Positions 8,023 through 30,871 of a stretch of 47,399 nucleotides of DNA are shown here, in pieces (position 1 is the stretch's first letter; each line of letters opens with the position of its first letter). The position numbers and the translations under genes are program-made. Source of the stretch: a virus. The notes under the pieces were generated by a model, which saw nothing but the letters and a program-made list of their open reading frames with translations, did not search any database and was not told the DNA's origin. The DNA is taken from IMG/VR virus record IMGVR_UViG_3300028623_000324, positions 1-47,399 of that record. One strand, written 5' to 3'.

Positions 8023-8529
8023 TTATGACATTGATCCTACAACTACGAAGGTGACCGAGTTCTGCTCTGCCTCTGAGTTGGAATTACCCTGATAGTTTAC
8101 TGATCCTTCTGGATAGACTAGATAGCTTACTGTTTTTAGAACTTCCTTATCTAATCCAAGTTTGACCACTATCATTTCTCTAGCACTTGCCGAGGCTGTT
8201 GCGATCGTCGCGCCAATCCTTCCAGTTTTCTGATCATCTCCAAGCATCTCCGCTTGCCATTCCACTATCCAATTAAGTACGGTGTGGTAGACATCGTCTG
8301 CAAAAGTTACTTCGATGTCCTGATTTGAAGATGCTTGTGGTATCTTTACTGGTCCTCTAACTGTATCTAAAGTAAATGATGAAATGGTGGAAAGGTTTTC
8401 TCGTACTTCAACTGCTGGAAACCAGACGTCGAAAGGGGCAGGGGCTTCTGGGAATTTTATGTCCCAGAGATACCCTCTACCCCATTCAATGTCTCTTACT
8501 TGATCAATGTCTTCTAAGAAGCCTGGCAT
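8023..8529 (-). CDS. Second tail-tube-like protein (gp19-fold paralogue)
   Basis: This 168-residue protein has the layout of the gp19 tube family: an early GYLWDIKFPEAPAPF strand segment, FPAVEVRE, then a central DIEVTFADDVYHTVLNWIVE helix-containing section. It lies just after the better-expressed-looking tube gene and shares a TAATG stop-start overlap with it. Tube-fold paralogues commonly act as baseplate-proximal tube rings or adaptors. The base composition is more AT-rich than that of the upstream tube gene, which suggests a minor component. Which of the two forms the bulk tube cannot be proved from sequence alone. Confidence 0.55.
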   Translation of the reverse strand: MPGFLEDIDQVRDIEWGRGYLWDIKFPEAPAPFDVWFPAVEVRENLSTISSFTLDTVRGPVKIPQASSNQDIEVTFADDVYHTVLNWIVEWQAEMLGDDQKTGRIGATIATASASAREMIVVKLGLDKEVLKTVSYLVYPEGSVNYQGNSNSEAEQNSVTFVVVGSMS

Positions 8530-9068
8530 TAGATCTCAACCGTTCCTGGCGCTCCTTCAAGGAAGTAGTCGTAGGCGAGGCTGATTGTCGGCTTGTAGAA
8601 GTCGTTGGTGTCGCCACCAAGCTGCCCGCCGTGATCCTTTGACTCCAGGAAGGCACCAAACAGGTAGTATTCCCAGATGGGTTCATTCTGCCTGTTGAGC
8701 CTTGTCAGCTTGATCGTTGCTGACACTGCTGCTTTGGTTGCATGCTTCCCGGTCCGCGATTCGTAGCATAGCTCCGACCACTGATCCAGGAACTGCGAGA
8801 CCTTGTTCTCGACCGTTTCCACGAACTGGGCTGTCCATGGTGAATCGTATCCGTAGATGCCAGGGTTACGAACCTTGTGTCCCCGGATATTGACTTCGAT
8901 GGTCTGTCCCGTTCTCTTTGGCATGTCAGCCGAGATGCAGCGGAGGTTGAGGTCGTCTCCGATCTGATCTGCTCCTTCTGGATACTCAATGAATTCAAGA
9001 ATCCAGGCATACATTGGGGCAAAATCGGCGATATTTCTGATGTCATCAATTTCTGGTCTAACGCCCAT
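8529..9068 (-). CDS. Major tail tube protein (gp19-like)
   Basis: This 179-residue protein is encoded immediately after the sheath, the classic sheath-tube order. It contains AWILEFIEYPEGADQIG, then CISADMPKRTGQTIEVNIRG, a motif pattern of T4-type tube proteins in which a strand is followed by a basic loop. A strong AGGAGG ribosome site precedes the ATG at 9068. The gene is visibly GC-richer than most genes here and matches the sheath and capsid genes, consistent with high expression. Tube subunits stack as hexamers around the tape measure inside the sheath. Confidence 0.7.
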   Translation of the reverse strand: MGVRPEIDDIRNIADFAPMYAWILEFIEYPEGADQIGDDLNLRCISADMPKRTGQTIEVNIRGHKVRNPGIYGYDSPWTAQFVETVENKVSQFLDQWSELCYESRTGKHATKAAVSATIKLTRLNRQNEPIWEYYLFGAFLESKDHGGQLGGDTNDFYKPTISLAYDYFLEGAPGTVEI

Positions 9069-9097
9069 GGTTAATTACCTCCTATTTGTTGCCTTTA

Positions 9098-11011: not shown

Positions 11012-11036
11012 AGGTTTTACCTCCGTTTAAAATGAC

Positions 11037-11315
11037 TTATGTTCGCTTATATGGGGAGAAAACTACTCCATATGGAAGGGCGCCCAACAGTTTCTTGTTG
11101 ATGTTCTGTGCTCTACCGTAAGGAGGTACAATGATCGTATTCCCGCCATATGAAACATTCGATGGATGATCAAGCCTACTTGACAGCTCACCCAACGTCG
11201 GGTTCTCCGAAACAAGTGGTTCCGGTGCTCCAAAAGGTTTGATACCTGAAACCACTGGGGTTTCAATCTTGTTTCCTGCCACCTGTTGAACCTCTTCGCG
11301 CGACAATTGTTTCAT
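11037..11315 (-). CDS. Hypothetical protein beside the sheath
   Basis: This 92-residue protein begins MKQLSREEVQQVAGNKIETP and ends in VVFSPYKRT. It is mostly polar with a helical first third and no transmembrane segment or recognisable motif. It has a good ribosome site and lies between the sheath and a tail-completion candidate, so a small virion or assembly role is plausible. The family is not recognised. Confidence 0.65.
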   Translation of the reverse strand: MKQLSREEVQQVAGNKIETPVVSGIKPFGAPEPLVSENPTLGELSSRLDHPSNVSYGGNTIIVPPYGRAQNINKKLLGALPYGVVFSPYKRT

Positions 11316-11324
11316 GGCTTCCTC

Positions 11325-11924
11325 CTAAATCCATTCGGTTGTAATGTTTATATATTTTATTTCCTTTTGCTCTAATGTCGGTCCAGCGATAAGCGGTCCA
11401 GCTATCAGTGCGTCTGACTGAACTGCCCTGTAGTTCACATTCTCCAGCGAGAATGGCATGTCTACAAGGGAATTCCACTTCAAGTTGAATGTCATGCTCC
11501 CTAATCCATAAGCTGACAAATCTATCAAAGCCTTCTTTGGCATCTCACCTAATGTATATAAGAACTCGAATTGCTCAATGTCTTTTATGTTATTTGAGAA
11601 ATACATGAACCTTAGATCAAACTCTACTTGCAGTACTCTATATTCCTGATACTTACTGTCTGCTGGTACATGTAGAAGTGGCGAGGACTTTCCTCTTGAT
11701 CCAAATGGCTCCATCTTCCTAAGAACTGATCTATTGTATGAGAATAATGGGAATGCGTCAGATACTTCTCCCTTCATCAACTTATTTGCCCTCATTGTCT
11801 GTATCGAGGTTTCATAAGATAACATTGGGTCAAATGTTGACGAAGTGAAGTTGATCTGCGGCTTCATTGCCGTTACTATCGAGTTGATTATTTGAGCTGG
11901 ATTGACCAGCAGCGTTAAAGCCAT
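11325..11924 (-). CDS. Hypothetical tail-completion or terminator protein
   Basis: This 199-residue beta-rich protein has the segment FPLFSYNRSVLRKMEPFGSR and a middle part YRVLQVEFDLRFMYFSNNIK with alternating hydrophobics. Its place between the connector-type genes and the sheath is where phages with this order encode tail terminator or sheath-capping proteins such as T4 gp15 or gp3. I see no diagnostic motif, so the role is inferred from position. Confidence 0.5.
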   Translation of the reverse strand: MALTLLVNPAQIINSIVTAMKPQINFTSSTFDPMLSYETSIQTMRANKLMKGEVSDAFPLFSYNRSVLRKMEPFGSRGKSSPLLHVPADSKYQEYRVLQVEFDLRFMYFSNNIKDIEQFEFLYTLGEMPKKALIDLSAYGLGSMTFNLKWNSLVDMPFSLENVNYRAVQSDALIAGPLIAGPTLEQKEIKYINITTEWI

Positions 11925-13399: not shown

Positions 13400-14788
13400 T
13401 TAGGTGATCGTCAGCTTGGTCATGAAGTTGGCGATGAGAATATCGCAAGCTGCCATCATTGCCGCTGCCCGCTGTGAGTTGATCGGGTTTGCCATCGGCA
13501 ACATACCTGTCACTGTCAGTGGCATGTACGGCGAGAACACGGCCGGCGCTTCGAAGATCGAGCTGGTCTTGAAGCCCAGGATGATGTAATTGGCATTCAG
13601 CACTGTCGCCAGCGGGACACGGATTACTGGAACTCCGTCCAGGGTACCGTAGATGTGGGCGCCGGAGATTGACGTACCATCGTAGATCTTGACCCAGCCA
13701 GGAAGAGTTGACATTACGGCGCAGGCATTCTTGCCGGCAACCATGTAGGAGATTGTGCCACGGCCTGCGTTCCCGACCATGACTGATTCTGCATCGGCCA
13801 GTGCATCCTTGAAGGTCTGCTTGTGTTCGAAATACGAAACCTGTGAAGGTGGGGTCTTGGACCAGTTCGTATTCCCGACCATTGCGGCGGCTTGTTTGCG
13901 GATCATGTCGCCCAGGACTTCCTCGTTGATGGCGTTTGTCAGGTCAACTGCGATATCGTCTTCGGCGATCTGGCCAAACCGTTTGCGCAGCGAGTAGGAC
14001 TTCAGCATACCCAATGTTGATTTCAGAGCGTAGACCTTGGATTTGACGGTCTTTGTGGTGAGCTCGTAGTTGATGGAGCGAATGTCTGTTGCTCCTTCCA
14101 GGTTCTGCTGATACAGAATCGTGATCGCGGTCCCGTTGCCAACGTTGGCGTTGAACACGACTGTGTATGCGCCGTTGGTGTAATCGATCGTACCGCTGGT
14201 GATACCATAGCCCGTGATGTGACCTTCGCCATCATCGTATCCCGATACCGCTCCGGCTGTCACGACGAGTGAGTTTGGCCTGACTGGAACATAATCCAGC
14301 GAACCTGAATATGTCGCATGGGCTCCATCGCCTGTTCCAACGGCCTCTGTTGCTTCGTTCGAAGCGTAGCCTGTTGGGACTTTCAGGACACCGCCTTCGA
14401 CTGAGACCAATGTCTCTTCGGCGGTGACGTTTCCTGCTGTGCTCTTTGCCACAACGGCTTTGTAGTACACTGTGCCCTGCTCTTCATCGATCGGCTGAAC
14501 CGAGGAGATGATCGAGATAGGCGAGGTGCCGTATGCAACTGTGATAACGTCCAAACCGATGCGGGGCAGAATCCCCAAGTCGGCGAGCGTTCCTTCCGAT
14601 TCGGCCATCGAAACGATGTCCTGGAAGTTTTCCAGCATCATGCCCAGGGCGTAGAAATCTGCGGCGCCGATTGGGCGAATCTTTGAGATGATTGACTTCG
14701 ACTCAAGACATTCCATGTAGGGCTTGTACTGTTTGAAGTACCGCTCCGCCTTTTTGTCTACCTGTTCCAAAATCCTATCTTCATTCAT
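13400..14788 (-). CDS. Major capsid protein (HK97 fold, gp23-like)
   Basis: This 462-residue protein follows the protease-scaffold gene and has the capsid pattern LGILPRIGLDVITVAYGTSP with ISIISSVQPI and TVYYKAVVA, comparable to the gp23 core. Residues about 148-229 form an inserted beta domain (VPVRPNSLVVTAG, GTIDYTNGAYTVVF, TAITILYQQ) that resembles surface-domain insertions of other phage capsids. The first residues (MNEDRILEQVDKK) resemble the N-terminal motif shared by the cargo-type genes upstream. The gene is GC-rich, with AAGGAGG before the start, as for a highly expressed gene. An N-terminal delta region may be removed by the protease. Confidence 0.87.
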   Translation of the reverse strand: MNEDRILEQVDKKAERYFKQYKPYMECLESKSIISKIRPIGAADFYALGMMLENFQDIVSMAESEGTLADLGILPRIGLDVITVAYGTSPISIISSVQPIDEEQGTVYYKAVVAKSTAGNVTAEETLVSVEGGVLKVPTGYASNEATEAVGTGDGAHATYSGSLDYVPVRPNSLVVTAGAVSGYDDGEGHITGYGITSGTIDYTNGAYTVVFNANVGNGTAITILYQQNLEGATDIRSINYELTTKTVKSKVYALKSTLGMLKSYSLRKRFGQIAEDDIAVDLTNAINEEVLGDMIRKQAAAMVGNTNWSKTPPSQVSYFEHKQTFKDALADAESVMVGNAGRGTISYMVAGKNACAVMSTLPGWVKIYDGTSISGAHIYGTLDGVPVIRVPLATVLNANYIILGFKTSSIFEAPAVFSPYMPLTVTGMLPMANPINSQRAAAMMAACDILIANFMTKLTIT

Positions 14789-14848: not shown

Positions 14849-15598
14849 TTACTTGCTAAATGACTCGAACATCCGTCCGACCCTTGATTCCGGTAGTTTC
14901 TTGTTTTTGTCCTCGACCTTAAACTTGCGGGTCGTTTCGAGGGACTCCTTCATCTCCTTGACGAAGGCTTCCAGTTTATCCAAGGCCATTGTACCGGCCA
15001 ATTCCTTCAGTTTGTCAACCTTGATGCCATATTTCGTGGCCAGTTCTTCGAACTTCTTGTCCGTGTTGGCTTCCTTCATCTTCTCCAAGAATGTCTTTGT
15101 CTTCATCAGAAGACCTGTCACATCTTCGACAGAACCAAACTTCTCGAAGAATTCTTTGTAGCCTTTGAAGGACTCCAAATTGGCCAGGATTGCCGGCACG
15201 TCGCCATGTGCTTCGAAAGCCTTCTTCATCTCTTCGGACTTTGCCAGAAGAGCCTGAATCTCTTCGAACGTACCAAACTCCTGGGAAATCTTGGAGTAGT
15301 CTTCGATGACGGCGTCGATGTCCTGAATTGTGCCATACTGTTTGATAGAGGACAGAAGGGCTTCGATGTCCTCATATGTTTTCTTGATCTTCTCGTGGTC
15401 GCCAAACTCTGCTTCGATCTTTGTGGCGTTCTCCACAATTACTTTGAGGACGTCATAGGCGCCGAGCGTCTCATACTGAGCGACTTTAACCTTCAAGCCT
15501 GAGAGCTCTTCCGTCTGCTTCTGGTCTCTCGTGGTGAACTCTGCAATTTGGTTAACGAGTTTGATATTCTCCTGCGTAAGCCTTTCAATGGCCTCCAT
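14849..15598 (-). CDS. Nested scaffold protein from an internal in-frame start
   Basis: An AAGGAGG box at 15613-15607 lies 8 bases before the in-frame ATG at 15598, which is residue 197 of the fusion. This is as good as any ribosome site in the window and far better than expected by chance inside a gene. It would yield a 249-residue scaffold (MEAIERLTQENIKLVNQIAE onward), nearly all coiled coil, without the protease. Nested protease and scaffold products are known, for example lambda C and Nu3. The scaffold half also looks more codon-biased than the protease half, as expected if it is made in excess. Confidence 0.7.
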   Translation of the reverse strand: MEAIERLTQENIKLVNQIAEFTTRDQKQTEELSGLKVKVAQYETLGAYDVLKVIVENATKIEAEFGDHEKIKKTYEDIEALLSSIKQYGTIQDIDAVIEDYSKISQEFGTFEEIQALLAKSEEMKKAFEAHGDVPAILANLESFKGYKEFFEKFGSVEDVTGLLMKTKTFLEKMKEANTDKKFEELATKYGIKVDKLKELAGTMALDKLEAFVKEMKESLETTRKFKVEDKNKKLPESRVGRMFESFSK

Positions 15599-16186
15599 AT
15601 TTATGTCCTCCTTAAAATCAGATGAATTTTTGCCTGTGAGGGCTTCTTCTAGAGCTTCACGAAGCTCTGGACGAGCCTCCAAAAAGCCCGGGTCTGTAAC
15701 AAAGTCAAACCTTTCGAGATCGAAGGAGTCTTCGTCAACAACATCCAGACCCTCTCCGTTCTTTCCTGAATACCCACCAGAGGCTTTTGATGATGTTGCC
15801 ATCTTTGAGCCTCCGATCATAAGTGTGTGTAGAATTCTTCCTACCGGTGTATCTAGAATCTCCGTTTGACCCATCCCAAGGCCTGTAGCCTCGTCGATCC
15901 AGAGCTTCTGCACGCGAACAGCGACTTTCCCTTCGTTGATAAGATCATCTGTACTCATCTCTTTGTGACCAACAGTTCCTAACATAAGGCCGTCTGTTAA
16001 CTTGGCCATAACGTTTGGTCTTGCCAGCTGTTTAGTCCAAAGAGAGTCTGTGTAGATCCGTTTGTTCCGGGATGCACGGTTTGGTGCAAAATGAGGTCCC
16101 TCTACCATGGCTAGAACGCCAGGTTTCTTAACCCCCTCTATCAATTTGAAACTCTGAAAGCCGTATGTGTCAAACAATGGATTCAT
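14849..16186 (-). CDS. Prohead protease fused to internal scaffold
   Basis: This 445-residue protein has two parts. Residues 1-185 are a gp21/S77-type prohead protease: VEGPHFAPNRASRNKRIY, a His in LGTVGHKEMS (H74) and a Ser patch MATSSKASGG (S132/S133). Residues 197-445 are a charged coiled coil typical of a scaffolding core (gp22-like). The linker (ARPELREALEEALTG) contains an LRE-A sequence that could be a self-cleavage site. An internal start with a perfect ribosome site divides the two parts. The enzyme should mature the capsid before DNA packaging. Assignment of protease and scaffold is strong; the exact catalytic residues are inferred. Confidence 0.85.
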   Translation of the reverse strand: MNPLFDTYGFQSFKLIEGVKKPGVLAMVEGPHFAPNRASRNKRIYTDSLWTKQLARPNVMAKLTDGLMLGTVGHKEMSTDDLINEGKVAVRVQKLWIDEATGLGMGQTEILDTPVGRILHTLMIGGSKMATSSKASGGYSGKNGEGLDVVDEDSFDLERFDFVTDPGFLEARPELREALEEALTGKNSSDFKEDINMEAIERLTQENIKLVNQIAEFTTRDQKQTEELSGLKVKVAQYETLGAYDVLKVIVENATKIEAEFGDHEKIKKTYEDIEALLSSIKQYGTIQDIDAVIEDYSKISQEFGTFEEIQALLAKSEEMKKAFEAHGDVPAILANLESFKGYKEFFEKFGSVEDVTGLLMKTKTFLEKMKEANTDKKFEELATKYGIKVDKLKELAGTMALDKLEAFVKEMKESLETTRKFKVEDKNKKLPESRVGRMFESFSK

Positions 16187-16195
16187 ATCACCGCC

Positions 16196-16927
16196 TTATT
16201 TCTTGTAAATACCCATTCTCTGCCCAATCTTTGCGGCGATAGCGTGTTTCCGAACTGCCTGGGCTCCCTTTTGCTTGTGAACCCTCTGCAGCTTACCCAT
16301 GGCGGCGGCGTACTTTCCTTTCAGCGTCCCTGTCCATTTGATAAGGGCTACCTTGACTTTCTTCTGGCCCTTCATGGCGTACTTGACACCAACAACCCGG
16401 CCCTGACGACCAAGCTTCGTAACCGTATCGCCTACTTTGTGTTTTGTGTCTTTGGCTTCATCGACTTCCTCTTCAACTTCAGCATCTGCTTCCAATGCTG
16501 TCGTATAGGCGTCACCGATCTCGCCAGGTGCAAGGATGGCCATGAGGGTTGATCTGTTGATCCAGGATGGGTCTGAAAGGTCTACGCCACCGTCTGCGCC
16601 TAGTGGTGGCTCTAACATCGATATGTCGATCACGATTGTGTCTTCGCCTTCGATCCCTGAGTAAACGATGGCGAATGGATTTCCTTCTTCATCAACCGAG
16701 AAGACAACTGTTTCAGTGTCCCCTTCCGAGTCTGTTAATTGAAGGATGGCGTCGCTGCCATCCTTCTCGATCGTTACTTGAATATCACCTAGGCCATATG
16801 AGGCCAGTAGATCCGCGAATGCTTGAGCTTCTGGAGAAGCCTCTCCGACATCGTCCATGCCCATATCCATTCCCATCTCGTTGCCCAAGGCATCCAACTG
16901 CTCGATGAGAGATTTTGCGAAAGACAT
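16196..16927 (-). CDS. Probable internal head protein with cargo-type N-terminal motif
   Basis: The start is the ATG at 16927 behind GACAGGAGG, not the longer frame beginning with TTG. The 243-residue protein begins MSFAKSLIEQLDALGNEMG, matching the motif shared with the cluster at 22-26 kb. The middle is acidic beta structure. The last 75 residues are strongly basic (KHKVGDTVTKLGRQGRVVGV and RVHKQKGAQAVRKHAIAAK) and could bind DNA. Its position just upstream of the protease gene and its split charge fit a core or DNA-associated head protein. No named family is recognised. Confidence 0.6.
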   Translation of the reverse strand: MSFAKSLIEQLDALGNEMGMDMGMDDVGEASPEAQAFADLLASYGLGDIQVTIEKDGSDAILQLTDSEGDTETVVFSVDEEGNPFAIVYSGIEGEDTIVIDISMLEPPLGADGGVDLSDPSWINRSTLMAILAPGEIGDAYTTALEADAEVEEEVDEAKDTKHKVGDTVTKLGRQGRVVGVKYAMKGQKKVKVALIKWTGTLKGKYAAAMGKLQRVHKQKGAQAVRKHAIAAKIGQRMGIYKK

Positions 16928-16992
16928 AAAATACCTCCTGTCAAATTGTCTGTTAACGAAACAATCACACAAAGTGTGTGCGTTTGCATCTA

Positions 16993-17023
16993 TTATATAA
17001 AGACTCTTGTGTTGTTATATAAG
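16993..17023 (-). promoter_or_regulatory. Pair of TTATATAA-type late promoter candidates
   Basis: The 126-base gap before the internal head protein contains minus-strand TTTATATAA at 17001-16993 and CTTATATAA at 17023-17015. They resemble the AT-rich -10-only late promoters of T4 (TATAAATA), and the phage encodes a sigma-like factor. A hairpin lies just upstream. This is a pattern-level suggestion. Confidence 0.35.
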
Positions 17024-17024
17024 A

Positions 17025-17043
17025 GAAGCCATCATGTGGCTTC
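17025..17043 (-). terminator. Hairpin after the SWIM-protein gene
   Basis: The minus strand reads GAAGCCA, a CATGA loop, then TGGCTTC, followed by TCTTATATAA. The 7-bp stem starts 11 bases after the stop of the upstream gene. The T-rich tail is weak, so termination may be partial. Confidence 0.45.
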
Positions 17044-17053
17044 ACTTATCTGG

Positions 17054-17605
17054 TTAAATAAACATTCCTGTGTTTGACATCAGCGTGAAAAGCCTCAATA
17101 TATGCTTACATGCTCCAGGTATGTGATTCGGATTCCGATAAGGTCTACCAAGTGGAGGGGGTGGAGTCTTCCTTGTATAAGGAATAAACTTCCTACCCAA
17201 GGCTCCTTGTTGAAGCAATTCGTATGAGAAATCAAACCGTAGCGATGGACAGTTGCAGGATACCCGTATTCCTGATTCCCCTTGTCTAATGGGGTTCATA
17301 TAGTATGTCTTCTTGGTGGCTGGATCTGAAAGTGTTATTATCTTTCCAGTTAGTTCCTCTTTTGTTTGAGCTACGTTTACTCCAAATAATTGTATTGATT
17401 GAATCCATCCAGTCTTTGATCTTGATGAAATCGTCAACATCTTTGTTCCAAATGCCGGCGATATCTTGATGTCAAGCAACTGAACGAAAGCGGAGTTGCC
17501 CTGGCGAACTCCACCATCCATCCTATTCGTCCCTGTTGCGAGGCTTTTCGGTGTTGCTTTGGTCGCCATCTCGACTAACTCCAGTATGTAGTCTGACCTA
17601 TTCAT
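17054..17605 (-). CDS. SWIM-type zinc-finger protein of the head gene cluster
   Basis: This 183-residue protein carries C117-x-C119 in RVSCNCPSLRF and C166-x-H168 in PGACKHILRLF, the CxC-xn-CxH pattern of SWIM zinc fingers, with a Pro-rich loop (KTPPPPLGRP) between. SWIM modules bind DNA or proteins. The N-terminus (MNRSDYILELVEMATKAT) is an amphipathic helix somewhat like the cargo motif. It lies between portal-linked and scaffold genes, so it may be a minor head component. The zinc pattern is visible; the function is not known to me. Confidence 0.6.
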   Translation of the reverse strand: MNRSDYILELVEMATKATPKSLATGTNRMDGGVRQGNSAFVQLLDIKISPAFGTKMLTISSRSKTGWIQSIQLFGVNVAQTKEELTGKIITLSDPATKKTYYMNPIRQGESGIRVSCNCPSLRFDFSYELLQQGALGRKFIPYTRKTPPPPLGRPYRNPNHIPGACKHILRLFTLMSNTGMFI

Positions 17606-18264
17606 TCTTTGCTACCAAGACCAAGCATCTTCTTTAGGACTCCTACTACATATTTATAGAATTCGTCGTCCTCTTCAGTAAGATTATATTCATCGGTAAC
17701 AATTTTCTTTGCCCTATTCCAGAGATCCTCTACCTCCGCTACTGTTTTTCCTGATTGATCGGCGAAGGACTTGACTATCTCTGCTGTTTCTATTAGCCTA
17801 ATGAGGAATTCCTCATCTTGAATACCCTTATCTTGTCTAAGGTCATTTGTTGCCTGAGCTACAAACTCTGTTAGGCAATCGAGGAATATCTCGTATTCAA
17901 CACATTCCATAACAGGCATGAAATACTGCGTCTCAATCATTCCATGTGTGAGAGCTGACGACAATGCTTTAATGGCCTCATTATTAGCGTCGTAAGCAAG
18001 TCCTCCAAATGTTCTTGAGGTCATATACCTACTCAGCTGTCTATGGAATTTCTTTCCAGCTGTTGACTTGTGATATCGGCGCATTCCTTTGAGCATCTTA
18101 TACTTGTTCTTGCGCCATTGTGATTTCGTTTGCTGTCCCCTCTGGAAGTCACGAATACCAGTTACAATCTGGGTTCGTCTCTTTATGAAGTCAGACTCTC
18201 CCAGATTTGATTCTCGGAGTTCGATATCAAATATTACCTTGTCGTCGTCTGAGGCAAATTTCAT
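17602..18264 (-). CDS. Hypothetical helical protein beside the portal
   Basis: I place the start at the ATG at 18264, one base after the portal stop, instead of the longer TTG frame. The 220-residue product has a basic N-terminal half (RKNKYKMLKGMRRYHKSTAG) and a helical C-terminal domain (KTVAEVEDLWNRAKKIVTDE ending KKMLGLGSKE). The last segment looks like a domain I associate with other large phages but cannot name. The start has only a weak AGGGA site, so coupling to the portal is likely. A prohead core role is possible. Confidence 0.6.
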   Translation of the reverse strand: MKFASDDDKVIFDIELRESNLGESDFIKRRTQIVTGIRDFQRGQQTKSQWRKNKYKMLKGMRRYHKSTAGKKFHRQLSRYMTSRTFGGLAYDANNEAIKALSSALTHGMIETQYFMPVMECVEYEIFLDCLTEFVAQATNDLRQDKGIQDEEFLIRLIETAEIVKSFADQSGKTVAEVEDLWNRAKKIVTDEYNLTEEDDEFYKYVVGVLKKMLGLGSKE

Positions 18265-18265
18265 G

Positions 18266-19771
18266 TTAAATCCCTGGAGGAGCTTCGTCTGATGGAGGTT
18301 CAATTACAGGTTTCGTGACCTTAAAGATCTTGTCTAGCGTTACTATTTTCAAGAAGTCCTTAAGGAACTTATTCATTTCATTTGTATCTATGCTATATTT
18401 CATGCTTGTGGCAATACCATTCAATGAAGTTGCTATGTTATTCACAACGCTTACCAGCGTGTCTACATACTCCAACCTATCCAAGTCTTCCACTGAGATC
18501 AATGAGTTTGTGAACTTGACTTCAATATCTGAAGGCTTTGGTGATAAACCAGAATTAACAAGATGAGAAAGCGCTATCTGGGTAAGGCCTTCTCTCACTG
18601 CGCGCTGAATAGTTCCCAGTTTTCTCACGTAGCGTGCAAATAATTTGAGCGTCTCGTTCTTAGATACTTCTCCACTAAACAAGAATGGGTACGGTACTCC
18701 GATTGATGCACAGATACATTTCCGTAGATCTTCGAGTACTGAGACATCCTGCATCTCGTCGAATCTTGGATCTGCTTTTCGTAGATCTCCATGGGTTGAG
18801 AAGATCGGAACTGCCTTAAATCTTCCTATTGACGCAAGAATGTCTGTTATTCTTGTCCCTGACGAATTGATATTGATATCTTTGTCATTCAGAACCCGTT
18901 CGTAGGTCTGAAGAATCTCTTTAAGGTCTGCTGCTTGCGTCCCATCTGGAACCTGTACTCCAATCAATGAAGATGAGTTGATCTTCTGCACATAAGATGC
19001 AGGGATAAGAACTGTCAGTAAGGACAACTGGTCAAGAAGGTCGAATGTTCCCCAGAGCATTGGCTTGCCCATACGAACATATTCTGACATGTTCTTGTCA
19101 TCAACCTTAATCCGAAGCTTTGATCCTCCAAGACAGAAGAAGGCGTACTGCTTTGAGTCAAGTTCGGTCTTCTCCTTCTCGTTTGTCATGAAGAATTTTG
19201 GCTCTGCTTCTGCATAGACCGCTACTGTCTTTGCCTGTTCAACGCTATCATGAATTGCTGTTATTCCTTTTCCTGCCTCGACATCCATCTTCAGGTAATA
19301 TTCACCGTAGGATAGGAAGTCGTCCATGAAAGATGCCAGAATTCCATCAATATTCACCTTTGCTTGTAGCTCGTCAAGTTTCGTTTTGAACGTTGCGTTT
19401 GGTGAGGTTATGTAGACAATGTCGTTTGTTATTGGGTTTGGTGCAAGTGAATCCTCAATCATCATATTAAGGATTCCCGTATAGAGATAGTTGTCTCTAT
19501 GTTGATCGACCATCTCTACAATAGCGGTCTTCTTTGCAACAACCTTTTGATAAAGTGTTGATAGGACTGATTTTACCTTTGCGTCTTTGAATGTCTTGAA
19601 TAGAGCTTTGTCAGCAAGCTGGTCAATAGTCAGTTGCTGAAGGTTGATTTGACTCGTCTGATTGACTACTTTCTTGTTTAATTCTTGTACTGTCTGTTCA
19701 AGGAGAGTGATCTTCGGCTTTGAGAAAACTGCGCTGAAGCTCTCTTTTATTCCATCAATTACTTTTGACAT
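18266..19771 (-). CDS. Portal protein (gp20-like)
   Basis: This 501-residue protein lies downstream of the large terminase. Typical portal traits are the segment FMDDFLSYGEYYLKMDVE, the tyrosine-rich core, and the stretch CASIGVPYPFLFSGEVSKNE followed by a long helix (LKLFARYVRKLGTIQRAVRE), which corresponds to the portal stem region. The first 50 residues are coiled coil (LLEQTVQELNKKVVNQ). Portals form the dodecameric DNA gate at one vertex and dock the terminase. The length matches T4-like portals (about 520). It overlaps the HNH gene upstream by 13 bases. Confidence 0.85.
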   Translation of the reverse strand: MSKVIDGIKESFSAVFSKPKITLLEQTVQELNKKVVNQTSQINLQQLTIDQLADKALFKTFKDAKVKSVLSTLYQKVVAKKTAIVEMVDQHRDNYLYTGILNMMIEDSLAPNPITNDIVYITSPNATFKTKLDELQAKVNIDGILASFMDDFLSYGEYYLKMDVEAGKGITAIHDSVEQAKTVAVYAEAEPKFFMTNEKEKTELDSKQYAFFCLGGSKLRIKVDDKNMSEYVRMGKPMLWGTFDLLDQLSLLTVLIPASYVQKINSSSLIGVQVPDGTQAADLKEILQTYERVLNDKDININSSGTRITDILASIGRFKAVPIFSTHGDLRKADPRFDEMQDVSVLEDLRKCICASIGVPYPFLFSGEVSKNETLKLFARYVRKLGTIQRAVREGLTQIALSHLVNSGLSPKPSDIEVKFTNSLISVEDLDRLEYVDTLVSVVNNIATSLNGIATSMKYSIDTNEMNKFLKDFLKIVTLDKIFKVTKPVIEPPSDEAPPGI

Positions 19772-20208
19772 ATGTTTCTCCGAAATATATCTACTGGCCT
19801 ATTAAGTATACTGTCAACAGGAAAACCATGAAGCTTCTTGAAGTTCTCCGGTGACCAATGACAATCGTAATGCAAAGGCATACAATTCTTTACTGAGCGA
19901 GTCCCTCCATCTCTTACCAACTTCCTGTGATGGTAGACGGCTGATTTCCATCCTTCAACTATTGTTGTCTTGCAAACTTCACATATGCCATTACAATTAA
20001 GAAAGGCCTCCAGTTTGGTTTCAGGTGTAAATTCTTTTCCTTTGCGCCTTGTGTTCTGAGCTTTTGCTGCCTTCAGGCTCATCCCATGTAGGTTGGCAAA
20101 GGCTTTCGCTCCCATTCTTGTTTGATCATAAAGCTTTGAGAATGAATTTAGACCTGGATTACTCTCCCGATCTATTAACAGGTCGTCGCGAACCTTTATT
20201 CTTCTCAT
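19759..20208 (-). CDS. HNH endonuclease between terminase and portal
   Basis: This 149-residue protein has a zinc pair (GICEVCKTTI), the central AVYHHRKLVRDGG and NCMPLHYDCHW, together an HNH nuclease core. The last part (FKKLHGFPVDSI) closely matches the C-terminus of a second HNH protein at 30047-30871. The N-terminal 50 residues are helical and may bind DNA. It overlaps both terminase and portal genes by a few bases, so it is fully embedded in the packaging operon. HNH proteins next to terminases assist DNA cutting in some phages; a homing origin is the alternative. The nuclease fold is clear, the role is inferred. Confidence 0.8.
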   Translation of the reverse strand: MRRIKVRDDLLIDRESNPGLNSFSKLYDQTRMGAKAFANLHGMSLKAAKAQNTRRKGKEFTPETKLEAFLNCNGICEVCKTTIVEGWKSAVYHHRKLVRDGGTRSVKNCMPLHYDCHWSPENFKKLHGFPVDSILNRPVDIFRRNICQK

Positions 20209-22112
20209 TTAAACATATTCCTTTGATCAAGTACCTCTCCTGGGATTATTCCATGTCGTATCTTATTATATAATTCCTCGGATGGAGATCTCTTCGCTAG
20301 CTGCAGGTCGAAGTATTCCTTCATCTTCAAAGCCGAGAAATCAGCATGTTGAATTGCATGGGTTACAACTATCGCTACACACTCAACTAAGTCATTTGAG
20401 GGTCCTCTATGTGTTCCTCTCCTTCCTTGTGAGTGGGAACCTGGGTGATCTACCTTATGATTTATCTTATCGTGATCCAGGTTGAATAGCTCGTCTCTAT
20501 ATGTCTTATTGTGATAGTGTGAGATCATCCTCTCATAATACGTGTTGGCAAGCGTCAGATATTCTGCATCTGACTTAAGAAGATTATATTTTGCCGCCTT
20601 TATTCCCGCAGCATTCAATAGCTGAATTGAGTCTGTTGATTGAAACTGATCAAATGTTACAAGAGCTATGTTGAGACCCTTTTCTCTTAGCCAGAATAGA
20701 AAGTCTCTCACCTTGAAGAAGGGCATCTCGTCTCCAAGGATCCTTGTGGACTCAATTGGAAGCATGATGTCTACTGTTATATGTGGCTGTTTGAGCTCTC
20801 CCTTCTTGACAAAAGAGTCTGCATATGCTCCCGCAAAGCCCAACATATCTTTGACTGTTGCGTAATCAACATGAAAGTAGTGCGGAAGATTCGGCTTGAG
20901 AATTGTTTTGAAGTCGAAGAAGTCTTTCAGGGCTACGGAATCGTTTGAAGATAGCGTTATCAGTTCTCTTGAGAATGGAGACCTAATAGATAGGTTCTGT
21001 GTTGCCTCTGTATAGGCGTCTTTTGATTTGAATAGTTTCCTACTATCTACACGGGCATGTCCAATTACATCTTTAATGGCCTGTCCTATATTATCCTTGA
21101 AAACCTGACGGAAGTTCTCTGGAATAAACTTGTAATAGAGCTTTACTTCCTCTGGTAGCTCTTCGATAACTTCTTTGAAAGGCTTTGTAAAGTCAATATC
21201 TTCTTGATCAATCGGAAAGTGACTGACTGTGAATTTGAGGTCATGCTCTGATTCAACCATCAGTGGTTCTACCAGGTCTGTCCCTAGGAAGACCAAGAAT
21301 TCTTCATCAAGATAGTGTTTGCGGCGTGTCTCATAGGCTACGACGTTTGATACATGAATTAGTGGATTGTCCTTTGCGGCAAGTATGCGTGATTCAACGA
21401 ATGATGTCGGGACAGCGGCTGATGAAACCAGAACTGAAAGTCCTTTGTCTTTGCCTCCAATGACGAAACGGTTTAATCGTCTATTCAATACTGCTGAATA
21501 TAGTCCTGTTGCCTTGCTATAGGATTCTACGAATACACCGTGTTTATCCAAGAAGTTGGCTTCATCAAGTATTGCACAGAAAAGGTCAGTTCCTATCTGA
21601 TGTCCTACATCCGATCCAAATATGACCATCTGACTCTTGAACTCAAGAACAGATGACTTGGCTGAGTTTCGTTGATAGTATTTCTGGAAATATGGTATCC
21701 CATCTATGATTCTTCGTATTCGTCCAAAGCCTGTTAATTCGGCTTGTTTAAGTGAAACTGAGAAGTAGATATAGGCTAGTACTGAGGCCTTCATCAAATC
21801 GAATAAAAATGGAATTGGTTCGTAACAGGAAAGTTCGTAAAGCTTGCGTATTACTATTGTTTCTGCTGCTGTTGATTTACCCGATCCAAGAGATCCTGTG
21901 GCTATCCATTCCGAACATTCATTATTTATGACGTGGGCTATCTCTTCCTTCCAAATGTCATAAAGACGCCCTGAAATATCGTCTCCTGAATAGAAAGGTG
22001 AATCAAGCCACTTCTCGATTGTGATAACTTCGCGAACTTGCTTGGCTTCTCCAGTGCCCAGTGTCCCCGATAGTTCTCCTAAGAAATCAGATAACTCATT
22101 TGGCTGCGACAT
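20205..22112 (-). CDS. Terminase large subunit
   Basis: This 635-residue protein is the DNA packaging motor. Walker A is GSLGSGKST at residues 73-81, and the Walker B-type LFCAILDEAN is at 177-186 with catalytic DE at 183-184. The C-terminal nuclease domain begins near residue 410 with YFHVDYATVKDMLGFAGAYA, which supplies the first metal-binding Asp. It overlaps the upstream gene by 17 bases and the HNH gene by four. The start has AAGG unusually close, so translation may depend on the upstream gene. The assignment is firm. Confidence 0.92.
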   Translation of the reverse strand: MSQPNELSDFLGELSGTLGTGEAKQVREVITIEKWLDSPFYSGDDISGRLYDIWKEEIAHVINNECSEWIATGSLGSGKSTAAETIVIRKLYELSCYEPIPFLFDLMKASVLAYIYFSVSLKQAELTGFGRIRRIIDGIPYFQKYYQRNSAKSSVLEFKSQMVIFGSDVGHQIGTDLFCAILDEANFLDKHGVFVESYSKATGLYSAVLNRRLNRFVIGGKDKGLSVLVSSAAVPTSFVESRILAAKDNPLIHVSNVVAYETRRKHYLDEEFLVFLGTDLVEPLMVESEHDLKFTVSHFPIDQEDIDFTKPFKEVIEELPEEVKLYYKFIPENFRQVFKDNIGQAIKDVIGHARVDSRKLFKSKDAYTEATQNLSIRSPFSRELITLSSNDSVALKDFFDFKTILKPNLPHYFHVDYATVKDMLGFAGAYADSFVKKGELKQPHITVDIMLPIESTRILGDEMPFFKVRDFLFWLREKGLNIALVTFDQFQSTDSIQLLNAAGIKAAKYNLLKSDAEYLTLANTYYERMISHYHNKTYRDELFNLDHDKINHKVDHPGSHSQGRRGTHRGPSNDLVECVAIVVTHAIQHADFSALKMKEYFDLQLAKRSPSEELYNKIRHGIIPGEVLDQRNMFK

Positions 22113-22653
22113 CCTTTTTGGTTACCTTCTGTGGAGTTGGACTCCATGGTTCTGCCATATATCTTTTGATCCAGGTTGCGTCCGCATTGGCGATGTATTC
22201 CCGAATCACATGTTCAGTTAACTTCTTATCCATTACTGTCTCTTTTCTACCGGCTCCCACCGATGGAAAATAGACAAATTCATTCTCTTTAGGCTTTAGC
22301 GAGGCCTTCTTCTCTACCCTTGATTGACCAGTTCCAAGTGTTGCCTGTCTCATTAACTGCGAGTTGTACGAGGCAAAGTCACCTTTGTGTTCGAGATAGA
22401 ATGGGCCGGTTGCTATCTGTGCTCCAATGGTTAAGTCCTGAACCTTTGAGACTATTACTCCATACGTTAGAAGTAGGTTGAACGCGGCAGAGACCTCGGC
22501 TACTGAGACTGTGGCGATATCGACTCTTGGTTTCTTCTTGAGCTGAACGATTCGTTCCGGTGAATTTGAGTCAGGAAATTCATCCTCAAACGGCCATCCC
22601 GTTGCCTTCATTTCCCTCAGTGCGTATAATTGTTCATGTATTGCTAATGACAT
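22096..22653 (-). CDS. Putative head cargo protein with N-terminal EQL motif
   Basis: This 185-residue protein begins MSLAIHEQLYALREMKATG, the clearest copy of the shared N-terminal motif. Beyond residue 45 is a mixed domain (VSAAFNLLLTYGVIVSKVQD), then a basic region and a KKDVAAK tail. No known family is recognised. The sequence ALRE-M after the motif would suit a gp21-type protease that cuts after LxE. A small-terminase role was considered because it precedes the large terminase, but the composition gives no support for it. Confidence 0.6.
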   Translation of the reverse strand: MSLAIHEQLYALREMKATGWPFEDEFPDSNSPERIVQLKKKPRVDIATVSVAEVSAAFNLLLTYGVIVSKVQDLTIGAQIATGPFYLEHKGDFASYNSQLMRQATLGTGQSRVEKKASLKPKENEFVYFPSVGAGRKETVMDKKLTEHVIREYIANADATWIKRYMAEPWSPTPQKVTKKDVAAK

Positions 22654-22657
22654 TGGC

Positions 22658-23476
22658 TTAATCCCATTTCATTCCGACTGCGTAGATTCCATGGTCTGGG
22701 GTTCCCGCATTTGAAATACGAACATTCGATAGTTTATCGACGAACAGTATCGTTCCCTTTGCCCCTGTGTCGTTCATTCTCTGGATATCCGAGTCATTCC
22801 TCGCCAACACAATAAACCCTGTTGGCTTGTCTTCCTTTCCAACTTGAAGTAGGGTTGCTGTTTCCGATGACCAGAACTTATCCCAGGATTTCTTCAGCTG
22901 CGGAAGATATTTCTTGCCTTCCTCGTCATTGTTAATCCCTTTGTCCTTATACAGAACCAGAAACTTGCCATTGAGCAGGGCTGATAGTCTGGTTGGAGCC
23001 AGGGAAATAGTCTCTGTAGATTCCTCGAATGATTCTTTGTTCCAGTTCGTAATGTCTTTTGATACACGGGCCAGTGATTGCTCTGGTGTATCGTCTGGAT
23101 TCGCATGTTTCTGATAATCCTTGACTATCTTGATCTTCAGAACCTTTGCGGCAAGCTTCTCGATTTCGGTCTTTCCTTTTGGCTGCTCGGTCTCGATCGC
23201 CTTTGACATCTCAATCGAATATGCTCTGGAAAGAGCTTTTAGCTTTGGATCGAAACCATCCTTCTCTTCGAAGTTGTTCAGACGGAATTCTTCTGTGATT
23301 CCGATAATTCTATCTGCAGATGAAGCGGCATCGTCCTCTTTTGCTCCCTGATTGAGCAGAAAGTCGTGAATCTTCTTCCAGCGAGCTGCTACCGATTGCT
23401 TCTGTAGCGCGTCTTTCCTACTCATCTCGTCCATGACTCCACGATGGAGGTGCATCTGCATATTTTGAATTGTCAT
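22658..23476 (-). CDS. Hypothetical protein of the cargo cluster
   Basis: This 272-residue protein starts MTIQNMQMHLHRGVMDEMSR behind AGGAGATATC. The N-terminus is helical but lacks the exact EQL pattern. The first 130 residues are helical and charged. The C-terminal half (FLVLYKDKGIN, TGFIVLARNDSDIQRM, GTILFVDKLSNVRI) is a compact alpha/beta domain. No motif is recognised. It lies between two proteins with the motif, so co-packaging is possible. Confidence 0.6.
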   Translation of the reverse strand: MTIQNMQMHLHRGVMDEMSRKDALQKQSVAARWKKIHDFLLNQGAKEDDAASSADRIIGITEEFRLNNFEEKDGFDPKLKALSRAYSIEMSKAIETEQPKGKTEIEKLAAKVLKIKIVKDYQKHANPDDTPEQSLARVSKDITNWNKESFEESTETISLAPTRLSALLNGKFLVLYKDKGINNDEEGKKYLPQLKKSWDKFWSSETATLLQVGKEDKPTGFIVLARNDSDIQRMNDTGAKGTILFVDKLSNVRISNAGTPDHGIYAVGMKWD

Positions 23477-23484
23477 GATATCTC

Positions 23485-23742
23485 CTATCCAGCTATCTGA
23501 TCAGCGATGATGGCTATTGCAATTCGATCATTCTTTGGGTTGAACTTCTTCTTGACATAAGCTTTTATGTCGGGTTCATAGTACAGTGATGCTGCCAGAT
23601 CTGATGCCACATCGCTTAGATCTTGACCGTCTGAAGTTGAGTCATCTGCCGCATCTTGACAACGCTGCTGAAATTGCTTATCCGTCAAGGCTTTTGCTTC
23701 TCTTAATGCCATAAACTGTTCTACTATTGCACATGCGCTCAT
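23485..23742 (-). CDS. Small putative head cargo protein with EQF motif
   Basis: This 85-residue protein begins MSACAIVEQFMALREAKAL and then has an acidic middle (DDSTSDGQDLSDVASDLAAS) and a short C-terminal helix ending IADQIAG. The N-terminal 15 residues match those of the neighbour at 22096-22653 (EQ, ALRE) although the rest is unrelated. ALRE-A fits an LxE-type cleavage site. Its small size and acidity recall the internal peptides of T4 heads. The GGAGCATAT ribosome site is good. Confidence 0.6.
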   Translation of the reverse strand: MSACAIVEQFMALREAKALTDKQFQQRCQDAADDSTSDGQDLSDVASDLAASLYYEPDIKAYVKKKFNPKNDRIAIAIIADQIAG

Positions 23743-24146
23743 ATATGCTCCAGTGCGTCTTTGAGATGGGTCATGAAACTATTCCAGATGTAGATCAAGT
23801 CCATCTGGAAACGCTTTCCAACTATCTTGTCTGAATCGACATAAATAGTTTTGCCGCTTTTGGTAAGTCTTGAAGTTATCGAGAAGCACTCTCCGTCAGT
23901 TCTGGAACTATTCTTCCAGTATTGAATGTCTGTGTAGGCTGATTGGACTTCAGCTCCATTAAGAAACTTGGGATCAAGCTCAAATGGAACCACGATTGCA
24001 TATTTTGCCATCGAGCCTGTTCCAATCTTCGATAGTCCCGTCATTTTATCTTTGCAGGAATTGATATGTAGAACCAGATCTTTCCCTGTCTTGATTGTAT
24101 CAAGAGATTCTCTTACCATATGGAGCTGTTCGAGTATTGAATCCAT
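23739..24146 (-). CDS. Putative head cargo protein with EQL motif
   Basis: This 135-residue protein begins MDSILEQLHMVRESLDTIK, a further copy of the shared motif, here close to the first residue. The rest is a globular alpha/beta domain (GSMAKYAIVVPFELDP, TIYVDSDKIVGKRFQM). There is no recognised family. It shares TAATG with the upstream gene and four bases with the downstream gene, so it is translated as part of a tight set. Confidence 0.6.
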   Translation of the reverse strand: MDSILEQLHMVRESLDTIKTGKDLVLHINSCKDKMTGLSKIGTGSMAKYAIVVPFELDPKFLNGAEVQSAYTDIQYWKNSSRTDGECFSITSRLTKSGKTIYVDSDKIVGKRFQMDLIYIWNSFMTHLKDALEHI

Positions 24147-24823
24147 TATTTTCCCTCAAATGTCTTAATCCAGTTCTTTGCGTCTTGCATACCGTTTGAG
24201 GACATTGGTTCGTTTTTCATAAAGAGTTCTATAAATTTGTCTTCCATGTCCTTTGGAATCGATTTCATTGTTCCTTTTATTGAGTCCCTCACGTCGTTCT
24301 TGTCCTTGAAGGATGTGTTTAGTATTGTAAATACGTTATAAAGGTCTTGTCCAGTCGTTACAAAATGGGAATTTTGCTTTAGGACTAAATTTATGTCAGC
24401 GATTCTGTCGTCGACGTCTCGCATAATGTTCTTTGCTAGTGAAGTTATCCTGTTTACTATGTCTCTGACTGAACCAAGCTTCACTTGTGGTACTGGCTTT
24501 GGTACTGAAACCTTCGGTGCGATTGGCGGAGGTGGTAATGGTGGTGGGGTTGGTGTTTTGATACCTTGATTAACCGGCATCCCTTTTGATCTTTCTATTG
24601 ATGCTGCGATATTATCAAATTTCTGATCTCTTAGGGCAGCAATAAAGTTAAGAAGCTTATCCTGCTTGGTAATTTTGCTTGCTCTGGTTAGACAGAATTG
24701 GGCAAAAGCTCCAGGTCCCATTTGAGATGAACGTCTCTGAATATCTGCAACCTCGCTGTTGTATTTCCCATCGGTCTCTTGCAGACCAGCAAGAATATCT
24801 AGGCTCTCTAAGAGATCTTTCAT
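24146..24823 (-). CDS. Proline-linked two-domain protein of the cargo cluster
   Basis: The start is the ATG at 24823 (ATGA overlap with the ligase stop, GAGAGG upstream), giving 225 residues. It begins MKDLLESLDILAGLQETDG, a diverged form of the motif with an LQE-T site. The first domain includes GPGAFAQFCLTRASKITKQD, and a Pro-rich linker (TPTPPPLPPPPIAP) at about residues 90-103 separates it from a helical C-terminal domain. The linker suggests an extended or flexible protein. No family is recognised. Confidence 0.6.
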   Translation of the reverse strand: MKDLLESLDILAGLQETDGKYNSEVADIQRRSSQMGPGAFAQFCLTRASKITKQDKLLNFIAALRDQKFDNIAASIERSKGMPVNQGIKTPTPPPLPPPPIAPKVSVPKPVPQVKLGSVRDIVNRITSLAKNIMRDVDDRIADINLVLKQNSHFVTTGQDLYNVFTILNTSFKDKNDVRDSIKGTMKSIPKDMEDKFIELFMKNEPMSSNGMQDAKNWIKTFEGK

Positions 24824-25776
24824 CGTTTGACCTCTCCACGCCATGGTATATCTGCTTTCGGTTTGTCCAATCGTAGCCGCTTGAATCTTGGATGGCGAAC
24901 CGCATCCTTCGTCAGTTCTGTGAAGGCTACTTCAATAAAGACTCCAGCCATTGTTCCATCGAGACACATCTTGTAGAGTCTTTTGCGCATCTCGTCTGTA
25001 AATCCGGCGACATCTATAGTGTCTGCGTTTATTCCTTTTGTGATTGGCGCTGAAGGATCTTCTATTGGTTTGACTACCAGCGCGCCGAGATTATCGGTGA
25101 ACTTTCCTTCACCTACCTTGTACCCAATACAAGGCCAATCTGCGGTATTTACCTGCTTCAACTTGTACCATGCAGAGGTCTTATCGAATGAGTAGGTTGA
25201 GTCTGAGGCCTTTGCCATTCCTCCCTCATATCCTTTTGAGAGAAACTTTGCGAAGGCTTTATCAATAGATGCCTGATCCTTTACCTTGATTCGCTCTGTT
25301 GCCTGCACAAACGGTGAGCGAAGGGTACGGATTGTCTGCAACATTCTTAATCGGCGTTGCAAATAGGGAACCTGTGATCCTCCAGCCTTAACCTCTTCTG
25401 ATGTAAGCATGTCGAAGATATAGAGTTTGAGCTGTAGATCTTCATGTGATAGATCTGAACGTGTCCCCGTAAGGTGCATTGTGGTTTCCCAGTCTGATAC
25501 AAATACTTCCGCATCAAATAGGAAGCCCTGGTCAAGAAGTAACTTCATTGCCTTGAGAATATGGGCAGTGTTATAGACCGGTTTTCCGTTACGTGAAAGC
25601 ACGACATATTTGTCCGTCTCTGGGTCTTTGAATACAAGGACTCGTATGCCGTCAATCTTCGATTCAATTGACTGAATGTTTTGCTGCTTCAGAACATTCG
25701 GCTTGTACGCGCCCCTATTCTTTGCCGGAACCAGAAACGTTTCAATAAGGTATTTAATCGCATCTGAGATGTTCAT
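24820..25776 (-). CDS. ATP-dependent DNA ligase
   Basis: This 318-residue ligase starts at the ATG at 25776 that shares TAATG with the preceding small gene. Motif I is ESKIDGIRV with the adenylated Lys at residue 40; motif III is FDAEVFV; motif IV EGGMAK; motif V WYKLKQVN. The C-terminal OB-fold domain ends with HPRFKRLRLDKP, as in T7-type ligases. It seals nicks in phage DNA. Its place inside a cluster of motif-bearing cargo candidates, with an N-terminal helix MNISDAIKYLIETF, raises the possibility that it is packaged. Enzyme assignment is firm; packaging is speculative. Confidence 0.9.
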   Translation of the reverse strand: MNISDAIKYLIETFLVPAKNRGAYKPNVLKQQNIQSIESKIDGIRVLVFKDPETDKYVVLSRNGKPVYNTAHILKAMKLLLDQGFLFDAEVFVSDWETTMHLTGTRSDLSHEDLQLKLYIFDMLTSEEVKAGGSQVPYLQRRLRMLQTIRTLRSPFVQATERIKVKDQASIDKAFAKFLSKGYEGGMAKASDSTYSFDKTSAWYKLKQVNTADWPCIGYKVGEGKFTDNLGALVVKPIEDPSAPITKGINADTIDVAGFTDEMRKRLYKMCLDGTMAGVFIEVAFTELTKDAVRHPRFKRLRLDKPKADIPWRGEVKR

Positions 25777-25943
25777 TAGCACGCCTTTCCTGCAGCCTCA
25801 CATTCAGTGCAGTGCCCTTTAACCTTGGACTCTGGATTCTGCTGCGTAAACTCCTTCTTACAGAGTATACACATAGTCATAGATTCGTTCTGCTTGCTTG
25901 TGCGAATGGCTGCGAACTGCTCATGCATCGCTTGACCTGACAT
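25776..25943 (-). CDS. 55-residue zinc-ribbon miniprotein with EQF motif
   Basis: This short gene begins MSGQAMHEQFAAIRTSK and continues with a zinc ribbon: CILC at residues 25-28 and CTEC at 45-48, ending in a Cys. Its first 14 residues are identical to the next gene upstream (25946-26350) although 9 of these 14 codons differ at synonymous positions. The stop shares TAATG with the ligase start. The N-terminus looks like a conserved module placed on a tiny zinc domain. Conserved protein-level identity strongly supports real coding. Confidence 0.75.
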   Translation of the reverse strand: MSGQAMHEQFAAIRTSKQNESMTMCILCKKEFTQQNPESKVKGHCTECEAAGKAC

Positions 25944-25945
25944 AA

Positions 25946-26350
25946 TTACATTCCCTCCACGCCTAGATAAACAAATACCGGAACATCCTTCTTTCCTTTG
26001 ATATCCGGTATGGTTTGTTTGATAGGCCCTATTGAGAAGTGGATAGTGTCATCTGGAAAGAATGTATCCACTTTGGCCTGTTTATCAACTACAACAATGA
26101 AGCTAAGAGAGTCTACAAGCCGGTCGGAATACTTCTTTCCCTGATCGGCAGCAAACTGGTCAGCCTGTTTCTTGTATTCAGCAGCAAACTGTTTTGTCAT
26201 GTCTGCCTGTGCTGATTTTGGCATCCATTCGGGAAAGGCTGGAAGCTTCTTTGGACTATCGCCTGTTTCCTGATAGAGAGGCTTGCCTGATGCTTCATTC
26301 TTACTGTTCCTGATTGCCGCAAATTGTTCATGCATTGCTTGCCCTGACAT
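25946..26350 (-). CDS. Putative head cargo protein with EQF motif
   Basis: This 134-residue protein begins MSGQAMHEQFAAIRNSKNEA, the twin of the next gene's N-terminus. After a Pro-containing spacer (PKKLPAFPEWMPKSAQ) a helix (AAEYKKQADQFAADQGKKY) leads into a beta-rich C-terminal domain (SFIVVVDKQAK, TIHFSIGPIKQTIPDIKG). No family is recognised. Its preserved N-terminus next to the zinc miniprotein indicates a shared targeting signal, not a shared fold. Confidence 0.65.
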   Translation of the reverse strand: MSGQAMHEQFAAIRNSKNEASGKPLYQETGDSPKKLPAFPEWMPKSAQADMTKQFAAEYKKQADQFAADQGKKYSDRLVDSLSFIVVVDKQAKVDTFFPDDTIHFSIGPIKQTIPDIKGKKDVPVFVYLGVEGM

Positions 26351-30046: not shown

Positions 30047-30871
30047 CTATATAAACTCGAGAGGCCTTGAATTCGAAGAGTAGCTTTGTGGGAGCTCAAA
30101 ACCATGAAGCTTCTTGAACTGAGCTGGTAACCAATGACAAGGACTATGAAGTACCATACAGTTGTCTAGCGTTGATTCTCCATCTCTTCTAAGGAGCTCT
30201 TTGTGGTGGTAAACCGCTGATCTCCAGCCTTCTGAAATGGGTAGATGACATTCCTGACAGATTCCCTTCTCTCGTTCGAATGCTGCTTTCTTTGTTGAAT
30301 CAAGAAACTCACTTTTGCGTAATCCTTTCCTTTTATTCCCTTCTATCTTCTTATAAACCCTTTCTGTTCTTAACCTTATGTTATTCCTTATCAAGACGTC
30401 TCTAACTGTTGTTGCGCTAACTCCATTGCTCTTTGATATCTTATTGCACCCATTGTTATCATACTCTAAACATATCTTATCCTCTTGCTCTCTCGATAAC
30501 CTATGTTTCCTTCCTTGTTTTAAATCACCCTCATTTAATAAACCTTTTTGTATTGCTCTATTTAAATTTATGTATAGTCCGCTGTTAGATATTGAAAAAT
30601 GGCCCATTAACTCATCGTTTGATAAGACCTTATATTTCTCTGCAAACAAAGCCAAATCCACTCTCCTGGCCTGATCCCTACTAATCCCTAATTCTCCTGT
30701 TGTTTTTCTACTTCGAAGGTCTAAGGCTGTTAAAAATCCCTCTTCTATGGCTCTTTTGACTAAAACTATTAACTGTCTCTTCTTCAATCCAAACATTGAT
30801 TGAAGAACAGAATAGGGGTTTAACTTGTATGCCTTTGATAGCTCTTCTAAATTTACTGAAGTCTTTCTCAT
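30047..30871 (-). CDS. Free-standing HNH endonuclease with HTH repeats
   Basis: This 274-residue protein has several helix-turn-helix-like repeats in residues 1-170 (LNPYSVLQSMFGLKKRQLIV; SNDELMGHFSISNSGLYINL; CNKISKSNGVSATTVRDVLI) followed by an HNH domain: GICQECHLPI, SAVYHHKELLRRDG and NCMVLHSPCHW. Its last 85 residues closely match the terminase-adjacent HNH protein, including FKKLHGF. The gene is AT-richer than its neighbours and sits between the Toprim and DUF932-like genes, which fits a mobile homing-type nuclease. TTTATA of its last codons may double as a promoter. Confidence 0.85.
   Translation of the reverse strand: MRKTSVNLEELSKAYKLNPYSVLQSMFGLKKRQLIVLVKRAIEEGFLTALDLRSRKTTGELGISRDQARRVDLALFAEKYKVLSNDELMGHFSISNSGLYINLNRAIQKGLLNEGDLKQGRKHRLSREQEDKICLEYDNNGCNKISKSNGVSATTVRDVLIRNNIRLRTERVYKKIEGNKRKGLRKSEFLDSTKKAAFEREKGICQECHLPISEGWRSAVYHHKELLRRDGESTLDNCMVLHSPCHWLPAQFKKLHGFELPQSYSSNSRPLEFI

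Follow-up and report, generated by a model that had tools for sequence, protein, structure and literature searches.

Six unrelated proteins of a Gp23-type phage share an N-terminal peptide that probably acts as a lineage-specific capsid-targeting sequence

The window analysed here, meaning the whole stretch of DNA, is a virus record of 47,399 bases from a contractile-tailed phage of bacteria with its genes on the minus strand. Besides a Gp23-family major capsid protein, its head genes encode the portal protein, the terminase large subunit and a T4-type prohead protease whose C-terminus carries a long extension (Table 1). The Peptidase_S77 match of the protease lies below the curated cut-off. 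No relatives were obtained by a terminase scan of IMG/VR or by a scan of genome_contigs with the capsid alignment.

Table 1. Head genes, tagged proteins and the untagged DNA ligase of the window
Feature	Coordinates	Strand	Details
Major capsid protein, Gp23 family	13400..14788	-	PF07068, E 2.2e-11; 50% identity to Rhizobium phage RHph_TM30
T4-type prohead protease, long C-terminal extension	14849..16186	-	phrog_207, E 1.8e-24; Peptidase_S77, E 8e-4
Body of 16196-16927	16196..16873	-	adjoins protease gene
Tag MSFAKSLIEQLDALGNEM of 16196-16927	16874..16927	-	motif LIEQLDALG, residues 7-15
Portal protein	18266..19771	-	phmmer to RHph_TM30 gene annotated portal, E 6.5e-67
Terminase large subunit	20205..22112	-	tblastn to annotated phage terminases
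Tag MSLAIHEQLYALREMKAT of 22096-22653 (185 aa, orphan body)	22600..22653	-	motif from residue 5
Tag MSACAIVEQFMALREAKA of 23485-23742 (85 aa)	23689..23742	-	motif from residue 6
Tag MDSILEQLHMVRESLDTI of 23739-24146 (135 aa)	24093..24146	-	motif from residue 4
ATP-dependent DNA ligase, within tagged cluster	24820..25776	-	PF01068, E 2e-21
Tag MSGQAMHEQFAAIRTSKQ of 25776-25943 (55 aa, Cys-rich zinc-finger-like body)	25890..25943	-	motif from residue 6
Tag MSGQAMHEQFAAIRNSKN of 25946-26350 (134 aa)	26297..26350	-	motif from residue 6

A preliminary description of this DNA had drawn attention to six proteins encoded between 16196 and 26350 that begin alike and continue differently, and each part of that observation holds. 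The six reading frames are real and all on the minus strand, the motif [ILM]-x-E-Q-[LF]-x-[AM]-[LIV]-[RG] is present in every one of them, starting at residue 4 to 7, and the bodies behind this tag show no similarity to one another when the proteins of the window are compared. None of the six has a PHROG or Pfam match to the T4 internal proteins (IPI-III, Alt), and searches with the bodies of 22096 and 25946 gave no relatives; the body of 25776-25943 has a weak Pfam zinc-finger match, under the cut-off. In a structure model of 16196-16927, which is of moderate quality and has no fold match, the tag forms a helix (residues 3-17) that is followed by a low-confidence linker (19-28).

The motif is well separated from chance. 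In the six-frame translation of all 47,399 bases it matches six times, always at these N-termini, and the shorter form [ILM].EQ[LF] adds only two further matches. When a profile was built with one tag left out, the omitted tag came 5th or 6th of 78 N-termini, with none but the training tags above it, and no more than 5-8 of the 14,319 proteome positions reached its score. With a BLOSUM profile, the six tags reach scores of 20-27, compared with 11 for the next N-terminus; the DNA ligase encoded within the cluster, whose lack of a tag is expected of a replication enzyme, scores 4.6 and serves as an internal negative control. No relatives of this ligase were found by search. Nine pairs of N-termini in the window are similar (shuffled mean 2.45, maximum 4 of 20), a count computed with a wrong, shorter start for 22096, and internal or C-terminal segments give 2. 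A single, restricted DNA pattern for the exact tag returned three chance matches only over IMG/VR.

Related phages were collected by a capsid-protein search, which yielded 17 IMG/VR loci, and the surroundings of the capsid gene were also inspected in annotated isolates. Several of these phages have tags of like design in other letters on small proteins near their head genes, 4 to about 20 per phage: MS[KR]AxxILxLxE in L021, L023 and L025, LIxELxxLLE in L012, L013 and L014, LxICE[AS] in Vibrio phage 1.031.O and MS[RK]ISxLNKKFE[AS] in Yersinia phage YerA41. In the tag-bearing relatives (the KA, LI, 1.031.O and YerA41 sets), N-termini resemble one another within a phage more than shuffled sequence does. 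This similarity did not exceed shuffled sequence in L002, L003, L010, L016 and L019, and the stretches examined of L002, L010, L016 and L019 show no detectable tag set. RHph_TM30, the isolate that is closest in its capsid protein, has no set above chance in its head region and only three tag-like N-termini. In a third phage (the 114-kb contig of L023), 19 of 200 N-termini match a profile made from L021 and L025, with an internal match rate of 0.2%, and 18 of these matches surround the head genes, at 80.9 to 107.7 kb. By regular expression, tags are found in this contig on 21/57 head-cluster genes vs 2/143 genes elsewhere (p=2.5e-11). G002 is nearly identical to L012 across the cluster, and its matches are not independent. 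Recognizable domains on the tagged cargo of relatives include Tad6, RimK, NUDIX and ADP-ribosyltransferase (ART), the last in a metagenomic phage (L045 12895-13347; ART-PolyVal, E 2.2e-7). ADP-ribosyltransferase is an activity known for T4 Alt.

Some bodies recur across phages and can be followed from one tag set to another. By phmmer, six other phages have orthologues of the 16196-16927 body, and one from a seventh can be aligned with these; in at least six phages the orthologues bear the tags of their own phage. A zinc-ribbon family and a SWIM-like family recur as well. In all 16 orthologous bodies for which a class profile exists, the tag class of the own phage scores best, with the orthologues omitted from profile training, and the L015 member, which has no own profile, falls into the similar KA class. 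The class comparisons follow phage lineages, so the 16 cases are not independent events. The SWIM-like body is tagged in some phages and untagged in others, and the SWIM-family proteins of the window and L006 show no clear tag class.

The capsid protein itself had also been offered as support, on the grounds that it starts with a related ILEQ. This point was abandoned: the letters belong to the capsid's own N-terminal arm and are not tag-specific, since the capsids of L021, L023 and L025 read I-x-E-[QE] despite quite different accessory tags. In these three loci, the capsid genes (8238-11134, 8355-11584 and 8683-11659, respectively) are split by inserts holding other reading frames, probably introns or homing-endonuclease insertions.

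Evidence on virions comes from YerA41, for which 63 virion proteins were identified by LC-MS/MS (PMC7354516). A profile of its five head-cluster tags picks out two more tagged proteins encoded far off, YerA41_059 and YerA41_066. The product name 'structural protein' is carried by 6/7 tagged proteins vs 34/206 others (p=1.9e-4), and outside the head cluster by 2/2 tagged proteins vs 15/157 (p=0.011); these counts were made by hand from annotation tables, without a gene-by-gene match to the LC-MS/MS table. Both distant proteins are annotated as structural. YerA41_059 (L063 23860-24207) matches the Thoeris inhibitor Tad6 (E 4e-22), which suggests head-packaged anti-defence, and YerA41_066, a RimK-like ligase, matches RimK (E 4e-37). 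A 'ribosomal protein modification protein' is marked as detected by LC-MS/MS in Table 3 of the same study (PMC7354516), and we infer that it is YerA41_066.

In phage T4, the first 10 residues of IPIII load the protein into the prohead core, and the protease gp21 cuts after L/I-x-E (PMC9026906). A strict L/I-x-E site is found in 4/6 tags of the window and M-x-E in the other two, and cleavage itself has not been seen. The site occurs in 24/40 tags of the KA set vs 31% of untagged N-termini, and in 14/16 tags of the LI set vs 38%. In YerA41 the tags end in KFE in place of L/I-x-E, which may mean that cleavage is not universal or that this phage has a different protease.

A modular signal for loading proteins into the head, as the preliminary description had proposed, remains the best-supported reading, in view of the T4-type protease, the Gp23 capsid, the tag architecture of relatives, the own-phage tags on orthologues and the enrichment in YerA41. 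With a probability of roughly 0.8, we regard the shared peptide as a lineage-specific capsid-targeting sequence that is functionally T4-like; docking, cleavage and ejection are inferred, and virion data are lacking for the window phage itself. On this reading, the tag, probably a short amphipathic helix, would dock a new protein on the scaffold core while the prohead grows, and the T4-type protease could clip it after L/I-x-E (IxE|Q, with LRE|A or VRE|S as further sites in some proteins), leaving the body in the head. These steps are proposed on the T4 precedent, the enrichment of L/I-x-E, and the separate tag helix and low-confidence linker in the 16196 model. The bodies would then probably be ejected with the DNA, as is inferred from the cargo. 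The protease of the window is the likely processing enzyme; its C-terminal extension is probably a fused scaffold and a candidate for the tag receptor, both roles being inferred.

Several other accounts of the shared N-terminus have to be weighed. It could be a functionless relic of duplicated gene starts, in which a 5′ end was copied together with its ribosome-binding site, and duplication did occur: the MHEQF tags of the neighbouring genes 25776-25943 and 25946-26350 are identical over their first 14 residues and probably represent a single duplicated 5′ end, which leaves about five independent instances of the tag. However, 9 of the 14 codons differ between these twins, all synonymously, which indicates that selection acts on the peptide and argues against a shared regulatory DNA element. 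Apart from a ribosome-binding site in some of them, the six start regions have no DNA in common, the upstream DNA is not conserved, and in relatives the tag architecture is kept while the letters change together. This account is scarcely credible.

A tag that serves only for assembly or docking, on head proteins that remain as structural or scaffold parts with none ejected, is unlikely but harder to dismiss. In many phages the 16196 family is conserved close to the protease, a core-protein role is possible for it, and the tag-like gp329 of RHph_TM30 is annotated 'prohead core protein'; against this, the enzyme-like or anti-defence cargo of relatives (Tad6, RimK, ART, NUDIX) fits delivered effectors better, and most bodies are orphans, unlike conserved structural parts. 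In principle, a short N-terminal helix could also direct a protein to another destination, such as the membrane, a replication complex or a phage nucleus, and some LI-type matches do sit outside head clusters. Such a destination is nevertheless very improbable, because tags concentrate around head genes, the tagged proteins of YerA41 are enriched among those annotated as structural, and the ligase, clamp loader and Toprim proteins of the window carry no tag by profile scoring of their N-termini.

Head targeting by a short N-terminal sequence has precedents. The capsid-targeting sequence of T4 (IPII, IPIII; Mullaney and Black 1996; PMC9026906) is likewise N-terminal, 10-19 residues long and common to otherwise different head proteins, and the window tags, four of which have the strict site, are compatible with a T4-type protease and its L/I-x-E motif; in the T4 record, the N-termini of IPII and IPIII are identical over the tag. 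The letters differ (MKTYQEFIAEA in T4, MSxAxIxEQLxALRE in the window), the set of tagged proteins is larger in the window phage and reaches about 20 in one relative, and neither cleavage nor packaging has been demonstrated for the window tags. In phage P1, a signal within the first 30 residues of DarB is sufficient to load a reporter (PMC9024508), but that study found no consensus among the other Dar proteins, whereas the six proteins of the window have a clear one. In giant phages, proteins such as gp53 and gp54 of SPN3US are diverged head proteins with common N-termini that are removed by the prohead protease (PMC5694885); these two are homologous and their propeptides run to about 125 residues, in contrast to tags of about 15 residues on unrelated bodies. 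The window tag probably works like the T4 sequence and is new in its letters and cargo, with the mechanism undemonstrated in the window phage.

A broader proposal, which we favour only slightly over its negation, is that such tags constitute a general, fast-diverging address system of Gp23-type phages. Every lineage would alter the tag of some 5 to 20 unrelated proteins in concert with an internal receptor, and tags read from sequence alone would then inventory the ejected anti-defence and takeover proteins. Because most of their bodies are orphans, proteins that are packed in the head and ejected are difficult to recognize. If tags mark them, a scan of N-termini for a shared helix would list them from one genome, with no homology needed; such a scan picks the Tad6 homologue and the RimK-like ligase in YerA41 and the ADP-ribosyltransferase domain in the metagenomic phage. 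Transferred to other phages, the tags could also act as short loading signals, and the way they change in concert raises a testable question on the receptor.

Apart from the tagged proteins, the window encodes a 965-residue protein (34601-37498) with a Pfam Radical_SAM match (E 2e-6, under the cut-off of that family); a radical SAM protein is unusual for a phage. The proteins of 19759-20208 and 30047-30871 are alike in part, with 50% identity across 86 residues, and resemble HNH-type endonucleases by eye, and one of the pair sits between the portal and terminase genes.
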